A stretch of 64,000 nucleotides of DNA from a bacterium (GTDB lineage Bacteria > Verrucomicrobiota > Verrucomicrobiia > Verrucomicrobiales > Akkermansiaceae). Positions within the stretch are counted from its first letter, which is position 1. The number at the start of each line of letters is the position of its first letter. Shown here piece by piece: positions 992 through 11,058 of the stretch. The position numbers were made by a program, and so were the translations under genes. Below the pieces are notes generated by a model. That model was not told where the DNA came from, ran no database searches, and was given only the letters and a program-made list of their open reading frames with translations. Location of the stretch: positions 124,001 to 188,000 of the forward strand of contig JAAEZT010000004.1 in NCBI GenBank assembly GCA_018222765.1. The letters are read 5' to 3'.

Positions 992-2851
992 CTACCCACC
1001 AGTTTTCGGCCCGCGGGGCTTCCTGGGCTTTTGCTGCTGGCCACCGCCAGCTCCCGGGCGACCTTGTCCGGCTTCGCGAGCTTTTTGGGCGGCTTCAGCT
1101 TTTTCAGCAAGCTTTTGCATCCAGCTCTTTTTGCCGGCCTTTTTGTTGGTTTTTAGTTCGGGCTCAGGCATTTTCTGCATGAACCAGGTTTGCGCGATGG
1201 AGAAGATGTTCTGCGTCGTCCAGTAGAGGGCGAGAGCGGAGGCAAAGTTGTAACAGAAGAAGAAAAAGATGAGCGGCATCAGCATGAAGATGCGCTGTTG
1301 CATTTTGTCCCCGGTCTTCGGAGTGACCTTCATTTGCAAGACCATCGTGATGGCCATGAGGAAGGGCAGGGGGTTGATGGGGAGACCCATGACGTAGGCG
1401 ACGGTGTCGGGCTGGGAGAGATCGGTGACCCACCAGAGGAAGGGCTCGTTGCGGAGCTCGACGGCATACTGGAGCATGGTGAAGAAGCCGAAGAAGATGG
1501 GGATCTGCAAGAGCATGGGAAGGCAACCGCCCATCGGGTTGACTCCAAACTCGCGATAGAGCTTCATTGTCTCCTGATTCATCTTGTTAGGATCGTCGGC
1601 ATACTTCTCCTTGAGCTTGGCCATCTTGGGCTGGAGCTTCGACATCCGCTTCATGGTGCGGGTGGACTTGGCGTGCAGGGGCCACATCAAGGTGCGGATA
1701 ATGAGAGTCAGGACAACGACAGCCCATCCCCAGGACCAATCGTTGCCCTCGCCGCCGAAGAGGGCTGAGAGCTTATTGAGGGTCCAGTTGAGAATGTTAC
1801 TGATCCAGCCGAAGAACCCGTAGTCCATGACTTCGGCCTTGTTCCCATCGAGGCTGCGAATCAGGAAGTTATTTTTAGGTCCTACAAAAATATCGAATTC
1901 GACGACCTTGGTGCTCTTTCCCGCCAGGGTTTCGTTGGGAAGGGAAAGGTAGTTGTTCAGAAGAGTTGCGCCTTTTTCTTCTTTGGCGCGGGGAGGCTTA
2001 AGAGTGATTTTCTTTGGGCTGACCCTGACGGTGGCGGGGTAGGGATCTTTAGGAGAAACGATGGTGGCAAAGAATTGGTTCTCTACGCCGCTGTACTGCA
2101 CTTTGCTTTCCTTGGCTTCACGATACTCGCTTTTTTCTTTGCTGAAGAATCCTCCTTCGAACCAAGTTCCTGACTCGGAATCGAACTCGCCGTCTTCCTG
2201 CCAGAAGAAGGTCAGGTAGTTGGCGCGTTCCCCTTCGAAGACAGGCGCTGCCGAGCCAGCTGCGATGGCCATATCGCCGAGGTCGACACCGGTGTCGCCC
2301 AAGTTGGTGATTTCGAGGCGAAGATTGAGTCGGTAGTCCGAGCCTGCGCTGTCGCCGACCTTGCTCCAGATTTTTTTAACGCCGAGGTTGTTGGAAGTGG
2401 TGCCGATATAGGTGATGGAATCGTCGCCGGCGTCCTTGGCGGAGTAGAATGGCTTGTCGAGAATGTCGCCGTTGATGGTGGTGAGGGCGCCGATGCGATT
2501 GACGCCGAGGTCGTTCATTTTGACCTTAAGAGCGGGATCGTGAACTGATTGTTCATTCGGGAACTCGATACTCTTGATGCCGCCTTCTAGGGTAGAAAGA
2601 TGGAAGGATGCTTCAGGCGTGAAGAATTTGTGGGGTTCGTCTTTTCCGGTGACTTCGGGTGCCGGTGGCTTGTTGTTGGCTTCGAGAACGCCGATAGGAT
2701 CCTCGGGTGCCTTAGCGGCAGCTTCCTCCTTGGCTTTCTTTTCTTCTGCTTCTTTCTTGGCAAGTTCGGCGGCATTTTTCCTGCCGGACATGATATTGAA
2801 GACGAGCAGAATACTGCAAATGGTGACGACGATCCAAGCTTTACGATCCAT
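992..2851 (-). CDS. yidC: Membrane protein insertase YidC (Oxa1 family)
   Basis: 619 residues. YidC inserts and folds inner-membrane proteins, alone or with SecYEG. Residues 5-22 form the N-terminal membrane segment, followed by a charged Ala/Lys/Glu linker, a periplasmic P1 domain (about 75-340) and the conserved five-helix insertase core with the [17 protein letters not shown] region. The C-terminal tail of about 70 residues is very basic and rich in Gly/Gln/Pro, fitting ribosome binding. It is the last gene of rpmH-rnpA-yidD-yidC and overlaps yidD by 11 bases. The long double-membrane type of YidC supports a Gram-negative cell. Confidence 0.97.
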
Positions 2852-3131
2852 GATCTATGAGTGGTTTAGTAGAAGATTTGGGAGAAGGAGAATTCCCTTC
2901 GGCTGGTGGCACGGGGTCATAACCGCACCCACCCCAAGGATGACAGCGTAAAATCCGGCGAATACCGAGCCAGCTGCCTTTTATCGAGCCGTGGGTCTCG
3001 ACTGCTTCCAGGAAATAGTGGGAGCAGGAGGGAGCGTAACGGCAGCCGGTATTCGGTCCGCCGAGGGCCTTAATGACCGGGCGGATGAGAAGCTGGTAGG
3101 CGCGAATGCCCAGACGGATGAGGGCCTTCAT
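2841..3131 (-). CDS. yidD: Membrane protein insertion efficiency factor YidD
   Basis: 96 residues. YidD is a small membrane-associated protein that helps YidC-dependent insertion. The family signature is clear: an amphipathic N-terminus ([13 protein letters not shown]), then [20 protein letters not shown] and a [13 protein letters not shown] end. Its start codon overlaps the rnpA stop as ATGA, and its end overlaps yidC by 11 bases, so translation is probably coupled. Confidence 0.96.
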
Positions 3132-3481
3132 AGTTCTTCGCGCCAGATTTTGAGTCGTTTTGCCACCTTGATCCAGTCTTGTTCGAGTTCATTGAGGGTG
3201 GCCTCGGAGGCGCGCCAGCGGGCGATGGTGACGACCATTTGTTGAGGAGGAAGGTGGTCGCCCCATTTGCGAATGATTTCGCGGAGGCGGCGACGGACGA
3301 AGTTTCGGGTGACCGCGTTACCAACTTTTTTTGAGGTGATGAGGCCGAAATTACGGTCCCCGGAGGAGGAGTCCTTTAGCGTGCCGATAACGAGGTATCG
3401 CCCGGCGGCGGATTGTCCCGTGTCGCGAACGGTTTGGAACTCGCCCCACAGGCGCATGCGCCGCTGACGAGTCAGTTTCAT
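3128..3481 (-). CDS. rnpA: Ribonuclease P protein component
   Basis: 117 residues from the ATG at 3481; a TTG two codons upstream (3487) is less likely. RnpA is the basic protein subunit that helps the RNase P RNA mature tRNA 5' ends. The signature is present as [18 protein letters not shown] (about 59-76), the family RNxxKRRxRE motif in slightly altered form. It lies between rpmH and yidD, the standard bacterial order. The RNA subunit gene is not in the window. Confidence 0.95.
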
Positions 3482-3541
3482 GACCAATTGGTTACCAAGC
3501 TTGGAATACCGTAACCCTCAGGGGGGACACGGTATGACCAA

Positions 3542-3727
3542 TTACTTGGTGTTGTTCTGCACCGTGTGGCGCTTGAAGTGAATCTCGGCTCCTTTTGGAA
3601 GAAGGCGCTTGCGACCCTTGCGGCGACGGTTTTTGAGGATGCCGCGGCCAGCCTTGGTGGCCATGCGGGCACGGAATCCATGTTGCTTCTTGCGAGTACG
3701 CTTGGAAGGCTGGTAAGTCATTTTCAT
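3542..3727 (-). CDS. rpmH: 50S ribosomal protein L34
   Basis: 61 residues, strongly basic, with the L34 hallmarks [19 protein letters not shown] and [16 protein letters not shown]. About 15 extra residues follow the usual L34 end. It is the first gene of the operon and has a good promoter about 60 bases upstream. dnaA, which often lies on the other side of rpmH, is not here; trpB is. Confidence 0.97.
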
Positions 3728-3783
3728 GGCCGTAAAAAAGTAAGATTTGGAAAGAAAGCACCCTCTGAGGACGCGGGACGCGG

Positions 3784-3811
3784 AGACTAGCGATCAGCGC
3801 GTGCTTGTCAA
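3784..3811 (-). promoter_or_regulatory. Sigma-70-type promoter for rpmH-rnpA-yidD-yidC
   Basis: On the minus strand a perfect -35 box TTGACA (3811-3806) is followed after 16 bases by a -10-like TAGTCT (3789-3784). Transcription would start near 3777, about 50 bases before the rpmH ATG. This was read by eye and has no experimental support. Confidence 0.6.
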
Positions 3812-4058
3812 CCAATCGTGGGATTTTTTGTGAAATTCATAGTTTCGTCTTAAAATGACGGTTTTTGGGGGAGCTGTGAGGGTCTTAGGAGGGAGAAAAT
3901 TACATTTTCTGAATCGTGGCACGGCGGATCTTCGAGAGCTTCCTGATGGTGGGTCCCAGAAACTGAATCGAATTTGGCTTCGGTTTTCAGCCATCGTTAC
4001 TCGGAGCCGGGTCGTGCTGCAACCCGCTGGTCAGTGAATGGACGACCGGGACCAACTT
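3812..4058. other. Intergenic stretch between rpmH and trpB
   Basis: With the promoter it makes up the roughly 330-base gap between the two minus-strand genes. It is AT-richer than its surroundings near 3820-3900. I see no convincing gene, no cluster of DnaA boxes and no T-tailed hairpin for trpB. Confidence 0.5.
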
Positions 4059-5273
4059 TTATGATCCGCCCTCGAGATCGAGGAGGAACTTTGAGGCCTG
4101 TTCGACGTCCTTATCACCGCGTCCGGAAAGATTGGCGACAATGATGTCGTCTTTGCCCATGGAGCCAGCCACTTTGGAAATGTATGCCAAGGCGTGGGAG
4201 GATTCGAGAGCGGGGATGATCCCCTCGGTGTATGCCAGTTCGCGGAATGCGGCGAGGGCCTCGTCGTCGGTGGCGTAGGTATATTCGGCGCGACCGATGT
4301 CCTGCAGGTAGGCGTGTTCGGGACCGACGGCGGCATAGTCGAGGCCAGCGCTTACGGAGTGGGTCAGTTCGATTTGTCCGTCGTCGTTGGCGAGGAGCCA
4401 GGTTTTTGATCCCTGAAGAACGCCGAGTTTTCCTCCCTGAAATCGGGCGGCGTGTTTTTCGGGAAGGATGCCTTCGCCTCCGGCTTCCACACCGATCATC
4501 GCAACGTCCTCATCGTCGACGAAGGGATGGAAGAGGCCCATGGCATTTGAGCCACCTCCGACGCAGGCGACGAGGAGATTGGGTAGACGGTTTTCTTTGG
4601 CGAGGATTTGCTCGCGGGCTTCCACGCCGATGATGCGATGGAAGTCTCGCACCATCATGGGGAAAGGATGTGGTCCTAAGGCGGAGCCGAGAATGTAGTG
4701 GGTGTCGTCGACGGTGGCGACCCAGTCGCGCATTGATTCGTTAACGGCTTCCTTGAGAGTGGCTTGCCCGGCAGTCACGGGGACGACCTTGGCTCCCATG
4801 AGCCGCATGCGGGTGACGTTAAGAGCCTGACGCTCCATATCAACTGCCCCCATGTAGACGGTGCATCCCATACCAAAACGAGCGCATACCGTGGCGGTTG
4901 CGACGCCGTGTTGTCCGGCTCCAGTTTCCGCAATAATTCGTTTTTTACCCAAGCGTTTGGCAAGAAGGATTTGGCCGATGGCGTTGTTGATCTTGTGGGC
5001 GCCGGTGTGGAGGAGGTCCTCTCGTTTCAGGTAAATCTTCGCGCCGCCGAGTTGCTCGGTCCAGCGTTCGGCGAAATAAAGGGGAGTAGGACGCCCGCAG
5101 TAGTTGTGCAGGAGGTCATCCAGTTCGCGTTGGAATTCAGGGTCGGCTTTGGCTTGCTCGTAGGCGAGGCTGAGCTCGTCGAGCGGGGTCATCAGGGTTT
5201 CCGGGGCGAAGCAGCCGCCGAATTGGCCGAAGTGTCCATTTGCGTCGGGGACGAGAGTTGCCTTGGTGCTCAC
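4059..5273 (-). CDS. trpB: Tryptophan synthase beta chain
   Basis: 404 residues. TrpB is the PLP enzyme that condenses indole with serine to give tryptophan. The PLP lysine is Lys94 in [15 protein letters not shown], and the phosphate-binding loop is [13 protein letters not shown]. The start and end ([14 protein letters not shown] and LSGRGDKD) match the TrpB1 class that works with TrpA. trpA is not adjacent, so the trp genes are scattered here. Confidence 0.97.
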
Positions 5274-5431: not shown

Positions 5432-6889
5432 ATGGAAGTCAGCCTCGTTTTTCCGCACCAACTCTTCGAAGACCACCCTGCGCTCAGCAGAGAGCGCCCG
5501 GTATGGCTTTTGGAGGATTCGCTAATGTTCGGTCGAGACAGCCACTGGCCGCTCGATCTTCACCGGAAGAAGCTAATTCTGCATCGGGCCTCCATGAAGA
5601 ACTACCAGGCAGAATTGGAGGATGAGGGATTTGTCGTCTCTTATCTGGAGTGCCGTGGGGTGTTGGATCTGGAGGGGGATCTGGATGTCCTTCATTTTTG
5701 CGATCCGGTTGATGATCTCCTGAGCAGGCGGCTTCGACGTTATGCCGAGAAACATGGGATTGAATTGAGGCAGGTGCCATCGCCGAATTTTCTCAGTCCG
5801 GACGACTGGCTGGATGGGGTGATTGGAGGGAAAAAAAGGCCATTAATGGGGAGTTTTTATAAGGCGCAGCGCAAGCGGTTGAATATTCTCATGGAAGATT
5901 CGGAGACTCCGATGGGTGGCAAGTGGTCTTTTGACGAAGAGAATCGAAAAAAGCTCCCCAAATCCCAGCCGGTTCCCGAACCACCAGCGGATGTTCCCAA
6001 CAGCTCTGTGGAGGAGGCGCAAAATTATGTTGCTCAGAACTTTCCAAAAGCTCTGGGCCGGAGCCACGGCTTTGCTTATCCGGTGGATCGGGTGGGCGCT
6101 AAAAAATGGCTGCAAGGGTTTCTCACCGAGCGCTTTCACCTCTTCGGAGACTATGAAGACGCGATCCATAGTGAGCATCGCATCATGTTTCACGGTGTCC
6201 TGACGCCAGTTTTAAATATTGGACTAATCACCCCTGACGAGGTCATTGCGGAGGCCTTGGAATTTGCGAGGGAACACAAGGTCCCGATGAACACGGTTGA
6301 GGGCTTTGTGCGCCAGATAATCGGATGGCGGGAGTTCATGCGTGCAATGTACTGCCAGCACGGAGTGGTTGAGCGCAATGGAAACTTTTGGGGCTTTGAC
6401 CGTGAGATGCCGAAGGCCTTTTACGATGGGACCACCGGGATTGATCCCGTTGACGAAACGATCCGCCGCGTTTTGGAAGATGGTTACTGCCACCACATTG
6501 AGCGACTCATGGTGTTGGGCAATTTTATGCTCCTCTGCCGTATTCATCCGAAGGAGGTCTATAAATGGTTTATGGAACTCTTTGTTGACGCCTACGACTG
6601 GGTGATGGTGCCCAATGTTTACGGAATGAGTCAGTTTGCCGATGGTGGGATTTTCACGACCAAGCCTTATCTTTCCGGTTCCAATTATATTCGCAAAATG
6701 TCCGATTATAAGAAGGGACCGTGGTGTGAGGTTTGGGACGGGCTCTTCTGGAGCTTCGTTGGAGATTATCAGGACGTCTTTCTTAAGAATCACCGGATGT
6801 CACAAATGGGACACATGCTCAACCGAATGGATGAGGCGAAACGTCAACTTCACCGAGACAATGCAGAGCGATTTTTGGACCAACTCTAG
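5432..6889 (+). CDS. Cryptochrome/photolyase-related protein (DPRP, PhrB-like)
   Basis: 485 residues of the deoxyribodipyrimidine-photolyase-related family, whose studied members repair (6-4) photoproducts or act as light sensors. Seen: an N-terminal alpha/beta domain (VFPHQLFEDHP, then WLLEDSLMF) and a C-terminal FAD-binding helical domain with QIIGWREFMRAMYC, YCHHIERLMVLGNFMLL and PNVYGMSQFADGG. Classical members have a CxxC pair and a CPF cysteine for a [4Fe-4S] cluster after the MSDY motif. Here that stretch is short (MSDYKKGPWCEVWDGLFW) and lacks the CxxC, so the cluster is probably missing. The next gene starts inside this one. Confidence 0.93.
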   Translation: MEVSLVFPHQLFEDHPALSRERPVWLLEDSLMFGRDSHWPLDLHRKKLILHRASMKNYQAELEDEGFVVSYLECRGVLDLEGDLDVLHFCDPVDDLLSRRLRRYAEKHGIELRQVPSPNFLSPDDWLDGVIGGKKRPLMGSFYKAQRKRLNILMEDSETPMGGKWSFDEENRKKLPKSQPVPEPPADVPNSSVEEAQNYVAQNFPKALGRSHGFAYPVDRVGAKKWLQGFLTERFHLFGDYEDAIHSEHRIMFHGVLTPVLNIGLITPDEVIAEALEFAREHKVPMNTVEGFVRQIIGWREFMRAMYCQHGVVERNGNFWGFDREMPKAFYDGTTGIDPVDETIRRVLEDGYCHHIERLMVLGNFMLLCRIHPKEVYKWFMELFVDAYDWVMVPNVYGMSQFADGGIFTTKPYLSGSNYIRKMSDYKKGPWCEVWDGLFWSFVGDYQDVFLKNHRMSQMGHMLNRMDEAKRQLHRDNAERFLDQL

Positions 6890-8030
6890 TGTTTTTCCGT
6901 CTTCTCGTGAAGCGGCATTGAACCGGCTGATGGAATTTGAAAAGACGGCCTCGCGCTATGGTCGGGATCGGAATCATGTCGTCCCGGGTCACCAAAATGT
7001 CTCCCGCCTCAGCCCGGCTATTCGGCATCGCTTGATTACGGAGACCGAAGTGGCAAAGCACATTTTACACCGTTACGCATTCTCTACGGTCGAAAAATTT
7101 CTTCAGGAAGTCTACTGGCGGCGCTATTGGAAAAGCTGGCTCGCCCTCCGGCCCCAAGTCTGGACCGACTATCTTCGTGATCTCGATGCACTGGAGGTTT
7201 GTGAGACGGCGCAAAAAGTCATGGCCGGTGAAGGGGAGGTGGAGATTATGAATGATTTCGCCCATGAACTCGTGGGGACCGGTTACCTTCATAATCATGC
7301 TCGGATGTGGTTTGCGGGATATTGGATTCACGCTATGGGGCTCCCCTGGCAGTTGGGAGCGGATTTCTTTTATCAACACCTCTTGGATGCCGATCCTGCT
7401 TCAAACACACTTTCGTGGAGATGGGTGGCCGGCTTGCAAACGAGGGGGAAGACTTACCTCGCGCGACGTGCCAATATTGAAAAATTTCTACACCCCGATT
7501 TATTGGAGGGGAGAGAGGGTGGGCTTGAGCTGCTCGCTAATTGTCGGGGCCCTCGAGGATTTGAATTCACCCGCCCTGAAATACAAAAACCTGCATATAA
7601 ACTTCTCGAGGTAGACCCATCTCTCGTCAGTGGATTTTGGCTGCACTCTGACGACCTTGGTGTGGATCCGAAATGCCACGAGGTGTTTCTCTCGGAAGAT
7701 CTCCCTGCCTCGGAGGTAAAGGCGCAATGGCTCAGAGAGGCTCTCGACGATGTTGAATCCCGGTTGATCGGGCATTGCATCGAACGCGCTCCGATCACCG
7801 ACCTACTTGCTTGGGCTGAGGAAAAAAAATTAGCCCAAATCATCGCCTATCGCCCCGAGATTGGGGTGCTGAATGATCAGTTATCCGAAATTGAGGAAGC
7901 GTTGAAAGAAGCCAACGTTCGTCTCGTTCTGTTGAGCCGGGGAGAGGATGATGAATTTCAGTCGCTTGCGACCGCGGGTTTCTTTGGGTTCTGGAAAAAG
8001 ATCGAATCTCGAATAAGAGCTTTTAAATGA
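6861..8030 (+). CDS. Photolyase-family FAD-binding protein with swapped domain order
   Basis: 389 residues from the ATG at 6861, which overlaps the previous gene by 29 bases. The next in-frame ATG (about 6930) would cut into conserved sequence, so the earlier start is preferred. Residues about 10-210 match the photolyase FAD-binding domain: LSPAIRHRLIT, the YWRRYWKSW helix, NHARMWFAGYWIH, then DADPASNTLSWRWVAG. The last 150 residues (from about LVSGFWLHSDDL to VRLVLLSRGEDD) resemble the Rossmann-like domain that is normally N-terminal. Coupling to the upstream gene suggests a shared light or DNA-repair role. Repair activity is not certain. Confidence 0.85.
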   Translation: MQSDFWTNSSVFPSSREAALNRLMEFEKTASRYGRDRNHVVPGHQNVSRLSPAIRHRLITETEVAKHILHRYAFSTVEKFLQEVYWRRYWKSWLALRPQVWTDYLRDLDALEVCETAQKVMAGEGEVEIMNDFAHELVGTGYLHNHARMWFAGYWIHAMGLPWQLGADFFYQHLLDADPASNTLSWRWVAGLQTRGKTYLARRANIEKFLHPDLLEGREGGLELLANCRGPRGFEFTRPEIQKPAYKLLEVDPSLVSGFWLHSDDLGVDPKCHEVFLSEDLPASEVKAQWLREALDDVESRLIGHCIERAPITDLLAWAEEKKLAQIIAYRPEIGVLNDQLSEIEEALKEANVRLVLLSRGEDDEFQSLATAGFFGFWKKIESRIRAFK

Positions 8031-9354: not shown

Positions 9355-10308
9355 TTATGGCTCTCTTGATAACCCCAGTGCCCAACGTTCTACTTCAGCT
9401 GGATGAGTGAATCCAACAAGCGCGCCCACTACGGCACCTCGATGGCAGCTATCGCCACCAACCAAGGCGTTGGCGGTAATGGCGGCGGTGAAGTCATCAT
9501 GATATTTCCACGCAAGATAGAGAGCTGCCGGGAAAGACTGATCGATGTAGCAGGCCGGGCTAAGAATCTTTCCAACAATGACTCGGTCCGGGCGATCAGC
9601 CCAGCGCGACGCTTTCCGTGTGGAGAACCAATCGCCTGCTGAAAGCTTGATGGCTTCGCGCAAGGCAACCCCCTCGGACAGGTCCAAGAGAAGGCGGGTC
9701 AGGCAATCCGCGGCCCGAAGGACGTTTGAGTGTCGATGGGTCAGGGTGACGTGCCTTTTGACCTGTTGCCTGATGTCTTCTCTTGAGTGGCCTTCGAGTG
9801 CGGCGACCAAAGCTGGCACTTGGGCAAGTCCGCCGATATGTTCATCTTTAATGCCGCATTTCCGGGCAGCTTTCCCCTGAGCGTAGCGAGTGAAGAATCC
9901 CCGATGGTATTCCTCCAAGTAGGTGTCCCGGTGCCAGCCGGGGGTGAGCATTTTAGTGATGAAAAGTTCGAGCCAATGGTCCTCGGAGTAATGACCCTGC
10001 TCGTTCACTTGGTGATAAAGTTCACGAGCGAGTTTAAAGTTTACCGTGTTCTCACCGGCGACGAGATTTTGATGATAGTGTATGCCGCGTTGTCCCCAGT
10101 ATTTGGCTTGGTCATGAAGGATCTCTCCCTTTTCATTCAATGGTTCGTAGCTGGATCTCCAAAGAATACTTCCAGCATGATGTGCAAGGGGAGCGCGGTA
10201 TTCCTTGAGGTCCGGGTAATCGGTGTCCAAGGCCGTGCGGTCATAATACCAATGCACCGGCATAGCGAAGGCGTCTGCAATAAGAGCCCCTTGGTAGGAC
10301 GTAATCAT
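9355..10308 (-). CDS. ADP-ribosylglycohydrolase family protein, altered metal site
   Basis: 317 residues from the ATG at 10308, which overlaps the stop of the upstream flavin reductase as ATGA; a longer frame reaching 10398 is less likely. The family removes ADP-ribose from proteins or other acceptors with two Mg ions. The fold is recognisable (GALIADAFAMPVHWYYD at the start, THRHSN in the middle), but the C-terminal metal motif, usually GGDTDT, reads GGDSCHRGAVVGALVG. The second aspartate is therefore replaced, so catalysis as in DraG/ARH3 is doubtful. A related subgroup with a GG-x-CHRGA motif exists, as far as I recall, with unproven function. Confidence 0.82.
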   Translation of the reverse strand: MITSYQGALIADAFAMPVHWYYDRTALDTDYPDLKEYRAPLAHHAGSILWRSSYEPLNEKGEILHDQAKYWGQRGIHYHQNLVAGENTVNFKLARELYHQVNEQGHYSEDHWLELFITKMLTPGWHRDTYLEEYHRGFFTRYAQGKAARKCGIKDEHIGGLAQVPALVAALEGHSREDIRQQVKRHVTLTHRHSNVLRAADCLTRLLLDLSEGVALREAIKLSAGDWFSTRKASRWADRPDRVIVGKILSPACYIDQSFPAALYLAWKYHDDFTAAITANALVGGDSCHRGAVVGALVGFTHPAEVERWALGLSREP

Positions 10309-10913
10309 GGCTTTGCGTAGGGAAGACGCTTGTGTTTTGAGATTCGGAAGTAGGTATCTAGTGCGGTCGATGCGAGTGACTCCTGACTGGCGAGACAAAT
10401 GCTGCCGTCGGGTGAGTAGGAGCCATCCGGGATGTCAACGAGCCGAACCCGCCCAACGATAAGCTTTGTTCCATTCGATGGGATATCGACAATCTCCTCC
10501 AGGCTGAGAGCATATCGGATCGGGCACTCCGCTACAAAAGGTGCTGTGATTCCTGCGTGGGAAAGCTCAGTGAGTCCAGTTGCGGAAAACTCTGAAACAT
10601 CCTCTGCGTAGCGCGCAGCACATTGGTGAGCTTGTTCTAAAGTTCTATCTGTTACGTGATTGAGGGTCCAACTTTCGGTTGCCAGGATATTTGCCAAGGT
10701 GTGGCGTTCAGCAGTGTCGGGGCGCGTCACCATCCCGATGAGAATGGGGTTTGATCCTAAATGGGTGATGCTGGAAAAGGGCGCGAGATTTGTAAAACCA
10801 GAGTTAGAGCGGGTGCCAACAAGGCAGATTGGCTTGGGGCCGGGAAGGGTGGTGGCAAACTGGACTCGCTCCAGCTTTTCCATGTTTTCGATGTCAGAGA
10901 GGGTGATGATCAC
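10305..10913 (-). CDS. Flavin reductase-like (FMN-binding split-barrel) protein
   Basis: 202 residues from a GTG at 10913. An upstream TTG (10976) and a downstream ATG (10883) are alternatives, none with a clear Shine-Dalgarno site. The split-barrel flavin reductase core is visible: LPGPKPICLVGTRS, then TNLAPFSSITHLGSNPILIGMV and a histidine-threonine stretch (ERHTLANIL). Such proteins bind FMN and supply reduced flavin or reduce small substrates. It is the first gene of an operon with an ADP-ribosylglycohydrolase-like and an FAD oxidase gene, joined by ATGA. Confidence 0.82.
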   Translation of the reverse strand: MIITLSDIENMEKLERVQFATTLPGPKPICLVGTRSNSGFTNLAPFSSITHLGSNPILIGMVTRPDTAERHTLANILATESWTLNHVTDRTLEQAHQCAARYAEDVSEFSATGLTELSHAGITAPFVAECPIRYALSLEEIVDIPSNGTKLIVGRVRLVDIPDGSYSPDGSICLASQESLASTALDTYFRISKHKRLPYAKP

Positions 10914-11058
10914 CTTTAATGATGGCAAGGTCTTCACAGTTCGCAAAAGGTATTTACACTTGGGAGTCTTTCTCAATCATCTCAGGTTCCGTGCCGACAA
11001 GGTGTCATAATATAAATCAAGGAGTGAAATTGGCCGAGAATCCGTTAGCGTCGATTCC

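Follow-up and report, generated by a model that had tools for sequence, protein, structure and literature searches.

Does a gene that seems to place the FAD-binding domain of a photolyase ahead of its alpha/beta domain encode a truly inverted enzyme, and is its second domain the ordinary photolyase domain in a new position? The gene occupies 6861-8030 on the plus strand of the window, by which we mean the whole stretch of 64,000 nucleotides analysed here; it starts with an ATG at 6861, its stop codon ends at 8030, and its product has 389 aa. We conclude that its product is very probably a photolyase of the domain-inverted NewPHL (SPL, Phr7) class, and that it is a real, ordinary member of this known class. 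The protein is divided as follows.

6861..8030, plus strand: probable inverted-domain photolyase (NewPHL/Phr7-like), 389 aa, from Pfam, predicted structure and structure alignment

6885..7559, plus strand: FAD-binding/catalytic helical domain by homology, residues ~9-233, from FAD_binding_7 and VIA-align (Z 15.6-18.1)

7629..7934, plus strand: C-terminal alpha/beta domain, probably a reduced photolyase antenna-type domain, residues 257-358, from models and from structure and profile comparison; predicted elements b1 257-261, b2 274-278, helix 285-301, b3 306-310, helix 312-321, b4 326-330, helix 341-350, b5 354-358

7941..8027, plus strand: C-terminal helix with GFFGFWKK, residues ~361-389, from profile and structure alignments

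The sequence-only reading had placed the FAD domain first, and all motifs that it quoted for this domain are present in the 389-aa protein in the order it gave. Pfam FAD_binding_7 matches residues 80-200 (E 7.7e-16) over profile positions 1-127 of 203, and about residues 5-238 of the full model align with the FAD domains of photolyases and cryptochromes at Z 15.6-18.1 (VIA-align, best 50 rows), which bears out that domain order. A sequence search of the PDB put class I photolyases on top, with residues 14-191 of our protein lying on their residues 207-394, and among the 17 PDB sequences found nothing was closer than ordinary photolyases and cryptochromes. Since full-length relatives with the same order were found down to about 32-35% identity, the inversion is neither chance nor an assembly artefact; the closest relatives are verrucomicrobial MAGs, at 90-93% identity.

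Residue conservation was followed in 93 aligned FAD domains (59 NewPHL-like, 12 Fe-S, split or divergent, and 22 classical), with the near-duplicates L005 and L092 dropped from these counts as well as from the tree and the C-terminal profile discussed below. H144, N145, R148, W86, R87, W163, D176 and N182 are invariant (93/93). W186 is found in all 59 NewPHL-like and all 22 classical rows and in 11/12 of the Fe-S, split or divergent ones; E83 is kept in 59/59 NewPHL-like rows, and M149 and W188 in 58/59 of them and in 22/22 classical rows. By E. coli numbering, we take the conserved positions to be the first two relay tryptophans (proximal and middle), the asparagine facing flavin N5 and the pocket for cyclobutane pyrimidine dimers (CPDs). 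The column that we presume, from the same numbering, to hold the third (distal) relay tryptophan has tryptophan in 22/22 classical and 0/59 NewPHL-like rows.

Taken together with what is described for the class, these residues suggest the following model. The N-terminal helical domain would bind FAD, and the tryptophans W186 and W163 would serve as a dyad in its photoreduction. The reduced flavin would then give an electron to a flipped-out CPD, splitting the dimer, which would be held by E83, W86, M149 and W188, presumably the equivalents of the class I CPD pocket in E. coli numbering; the reduced alpha/beta domain at the C-terminus may cover the flavin side of the enzyme. The expected activity is the repair of CPDs in single-stranded DNA, the preference for single strands being suggested by analogy with characterised members. 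It is established for the superfamily that sequence alone does not separate repair from sensing, and one may consider a cryptochrome-like light sensor whose repair activity has been lost; we regard this as most improbable, given that the residues of the CPD pocket persist (E83 and W86 in 59/59, M149 and W188 in 58/59 NewPHL-like rows), that the gene overlaps another photolyase gene, and that class members described in print repair CPDs.

The overlapping gene lies directly upstream.

5432..6889, plus strand: upstream gene with DPRP (Pfam, E 3.1e-49) and FAD_binding_7 in normal domain order

Its end shares 29 bases with the start of the inverted photolyase gene. By domain content it would be a photolyase of the prokaryotic (6-4)/FeS-BCP type, and it is a neighbour, outside the inverted protein. 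In the latter, Pfam finds FAD_binding_7 alone, with no DPRP domain; the Fe-S cysteine motif is absent from it, cysteines occurring only at 114, 228, 272 and 306 with no CxxC. A relative of the upstream gene overlaps, or lies at most 12 bases away, in 7/71 relative loci. The host genome holds three FAD_binding_7 matches in total, and its one PF00875 match is a classical photolyase on another contig.

What, then, is the C-terminal domain? The full-length AlphaFold2 model, built from the window protein aligned with 13 relatives, has a pLDDT of 91.0 and a pTM of 0.89. In it, residues 16-225 are helical and are followed by five strands with intervening helices (257-358); a final helix spans 361-387, and the alpha/beta domain is separate, with 10-residue pLDDT means mostly above 90. 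When the last 140 residues were modelled on their own (pLDDT 88.3, pTM 0.78), the best matches among solved structures were the N-terminal domains of photolyases, at Z 10.4; photolyases and cryptochromes account for the first 15 rows and for 40 of the best 50. The margin is narrow: the first match outside this family, a universal stress protein (USP), reaches Z 9.3, 1.1 below the best. USP and photolyase alpha/beta domains presumably both belong to the HUP group of folds, and with two scores so close the fold comparison alone makes a photolyase domain somewhat likelier than other HUP-group folds. Foldseek returned no match to the isolated domain at E <= 0.001; a phosphopantetheine adenylyltransferase came first (E 4.2e-3) and a USP third.

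The position of the last helix is a separate matter. The motif G[FY]F.[FYVL] marks it in 59/61 single-chain members, and the profile alignment pairs the GFFGFWKK helix with the VFTPF-type linker segment found in ordinary photolyases. This placement is not confirmed by the structural alignments: in 29/40 photolyase or cryptochrome alignments of the isolated model, the alignment ends at residue 304 or later of the solved chain, with the last helix of the model superposed on one of the FAD-domain helices.

Searched alone, the last 139-140 residues reach PF00875 only at E 0.11, below the Pfam cut-off, find nothing in NCBIfam up to E 1, and among PDB sequences hit only designed armadillo proteins (E 0.014-0.03) and a GH3 enzyme (1.4). 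By sequence, the resemblance to the photolyase alpha/beta domain that the sequence-only reading had noted emerges through an intermediate profile, and the intermediates are relatives whose two domains are encoded separately. Relatives of ~250-290 aa had at first sight lacked a second domain. We rejected that explanation, as a downstream frame, overlapping or adjacent, carries an alpha/beta domain whose end reads KRFTPFWK or similar, at or near the end of the FAD frame in 14/14 loci (L063-L066 and L095-L104, with other short frames such as G506, G478 and G526 left out); in L063, L064 and L066 that frame was recognised by reading, with no profile hit. One split locus, L098, is laid out thus.

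2902-3696, minus strand: FAD frame of L098

2495-2941, minus strand: alpha/beta frame of L098

Split inverted photolyases (L063-L066, L095-L103) occur in Verrucomicrobia and Alphaproteobacteria samples. L104 (2155-3421, plus strand, the same place as L023) carries NewPHL-like domains in two frames, 2155-3036 and 2945-3421, which may be a true split or the result of a frameshift or sequencing error. A further relative, L051, encoded at 2893-4263 on plasmid p380k of Deinococcus sp. AJ005, is a fused photolyase of the inverted kind and carries a CxxC...C motif; the classical alpha/beta profile hits its C-terminal domain at E 4.4e-6, and it resembles cyanobacterial Phr6 as described.

A profile of 61 C-terminal domains, of which the program kept 59, was compared directly with one of 22 classical N-terminal domains. 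The default setting gave E 5e-5 and one other 5.9e-6, against a best E of 0.031 in 100 column shuffles and of 0.35 in the reversed control; without L051 and L052 the value weakened to 2.6e-4, and with 18 near relatives it was 8.7e-4 over 36 columns. A bridge profile was built from the alpha/beta domains of 12 split partners and of the fused L051, 13 in all. Against the classical domains it reached E 1.3e-14 (131 columns), and against the 59 NewPHL-like C-terminal domains, a set without L051 and L052, E 2.3e-10 (137 columns); 40 column shuffles each gave best values of 0.03 and 0.092, respectively, and all these profile E-values hold for single comparisons. This chain through the split partners shows the C-terminal domain to be a homologue of the photolyase alpha/beta domain.

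The rival view holds that an unrelated Rossmann-like domain, akin to a USP or a nucleotidyltransferase, was joined to a stand-alone FAD domain and that nothing was permuted. It could draw on the Foldseek ranking of the isolated domain (phosphopantetheine adenylyltransferases first, USP third), on the closeness of Z 9.3 to 10.4 and on the weak direct profile similarity to classical domains, but on re-alignment photolyases and cryptochromes hold the first 15 rows, and the chain through the split partners is strong, is collinear across most of the domain (137 and 131 columns) and includes the terminal FWK segment. We consider that this view has very little chance of being correct. Models and profiles together support a reduced photolyase alpha/beta domain; the earlier suggestion would have fallen had this part proved unrelated to the photolyase Rossmann-like domain, and neither the structure comparison nor the profile chain points that way. 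The earlier reading as a permutation is thus supported, with the qualification that the protein shows losses. Ordinary photolyases have a helix between the first two strands of the alpha/beta domain; none is predicted between b1 and b2 here, and the FAD domain covers only 127/203 of its profile.

How widespread is the arrangement? With split forms counted in, 56/286 genomes of the host's class and 13/142 genomes of the class of Roseisalinus have a match at E <= 1e-25. In the phylum sample 54/194 genomes match at E <= 1e-3, mostly classical photolyases through the FAD domain only. One scan of viral contigs confirmed no relative, and 10 phage records matched by the FAD domain only, at 24-27% identity. 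In a tree of the FAD domain only (a quick search without bootstrap, in which the branch of L052 is very long), a branch with SH-aLRT 100 separates 71 inverted rows from 22 classical ones, and a branch with SH-aLRT 97 unites the 59 NewPHL-like rows and L023, whose domains lie in two frames. Five of ten short-frame loci entered this tree (L095, L097, L098, L102 and L103), and L015, L094, L053, L054 and L016 were dropped from an alignment of relatives. The topology is consistent with a single inversion of domain order, judged against the 22 class I-like rows, DPRP-type, class II and DASH rows having been left out.

The adjoining genes, all on the minus strand, encode an amine-oxidase-type flavoprotein and two further proteins.

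9358-10398, minus strand: ADP-ribosylglycohydrolase-family gene (PF03747, the sole match in the genome)

10308-10976, minus strand: flavin-reductase-like protein (PF01613), close to the two photolyase genes

The latter is a possible source of reduced flavin. A relative of the former is found near inverted photolyases in 15/71 loci (L002-L005, L007, L095, L096, L098, L100, L104, L106, L108, L126, L133 and L134), four of them split-gene loci, and in none of the 20 regions that surround classical photolyases; in L106, L126, L133 and L134 it lies 24-70 bases from the photolyase on the same strand. This association is a lead only: some of the 71 loci are near-duplicates or have little flanking sequence, the two sets are unequal in their flanks, and neither is free of phylogenetic dependence. 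By title, a literature search for an operon of the two genes gave only a coral genome database. We may speculate that fused and split inverted photolyases form a single lineage, the alpha/beta domain having come to follow the FAD domain through a two-gene stage, and that in Verrucomicrobia they work with the recurring ADP-ribosylglycohydrolase, which would perhaps remove ADP-ribose from repair proteins or from the single-stranded DNA on which the photolyases act; we hold this combined scenario to be very unlikely.

What is the relevance of these observations? They add verrucomicrobial members to a described photolyase class, and the split-gene intermediates offer an argument at the level of sequence that its short C-terminal domain is a worn-down ordinary photolyase alpha/beta domain. 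Such a domain would bear on the origin of the class, which may lie near the origin of the family, as excerpts of the literature propose, or may be that of a rearranged descendant.

The earlier reading had left open whether the permutation had been described, and it has. Titles and abstract openings retrieved with 'circular permutation' and 'photolyase' held nothing on inverted order. The abstract of the 2020 paper by Emmerich reportedly agrees with the description of NewPHL as inverted. According to published excerpts, inverted photolyases comprise NewPHL/SPL (Emmerich 2020, as described in PMC13274461) and picocyanobacterial Phr7 and Phr4/5/6, with reversed domain order in Synechococcus phr4/phr5 and Cyanobium phr6 and split forms in marine Synechococcus, Cyanobium and Nostoc (PMC9426592). 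The same excerpts characterise the class by its inverted topology, a Trp dyad and the repair of CPDs in single-stranded DNA (PMC13274461, PMC9426592, PMC8948257), and report 'a mere Trp dyad' in D. shibae NewPHL (PMC8948257), and, for Phr7, no Fe-S cysteines, the short C-terminal domain of NewPHL/SPL/Phr7 being named the Z-domain (PMC9426592). The NewPHL proteins of Dinoroseobacter shibae (A8LJA9) and Methylobacterium mesophilicum (M7YZC8) are biochemically tested members. With the inverted order in print, our finding is not new in kind.

Compared with known systems, the window protein differs from FeS-BCP and prokaryotic (6-4) photolyases, which have an N-terminal DPRP domain that it lacks. 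With class I/III CPD photolyases and DASH cryptochromes it shares the fold of the FAD domain and the catalytic residues, but its domain order is opposite, with no N-terminal alpha/beta domain, and the presumed third relay tryptophan of the 22/22 classical rows is missing from the 59 NewPHL-like rows. Phr4+Phr5 and Phr6 of marine Synechococcus and Cyanobium likewise have the FAD domain first and the alpha/beta domain second, and rows resembling them share the inverted side of the tree; unlike the window protein, a single chain without the cysteine motif, they carry Fe-S cysteines and are often encoded by two genes. From NewPHL/SPL/Phr7, to which it very probably belongs, it differs in none of the features tested: an N-terminal FAD domain (here from about residue 9), a short C-terminal domain behind it, no Fe-S cysteine motif, and two relay tryptophans (W163, W186) rather than three. 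The nearest named stand-ins for the tested NewPHL are the Roseobacteraceae proteins L013 and L014, 38-41% identical, and while the members named in the excerpts come from Alphaproteobacteria and picocyanobacteria, the nearest relatives of the window protein come from verrucomicrobial MAGs.
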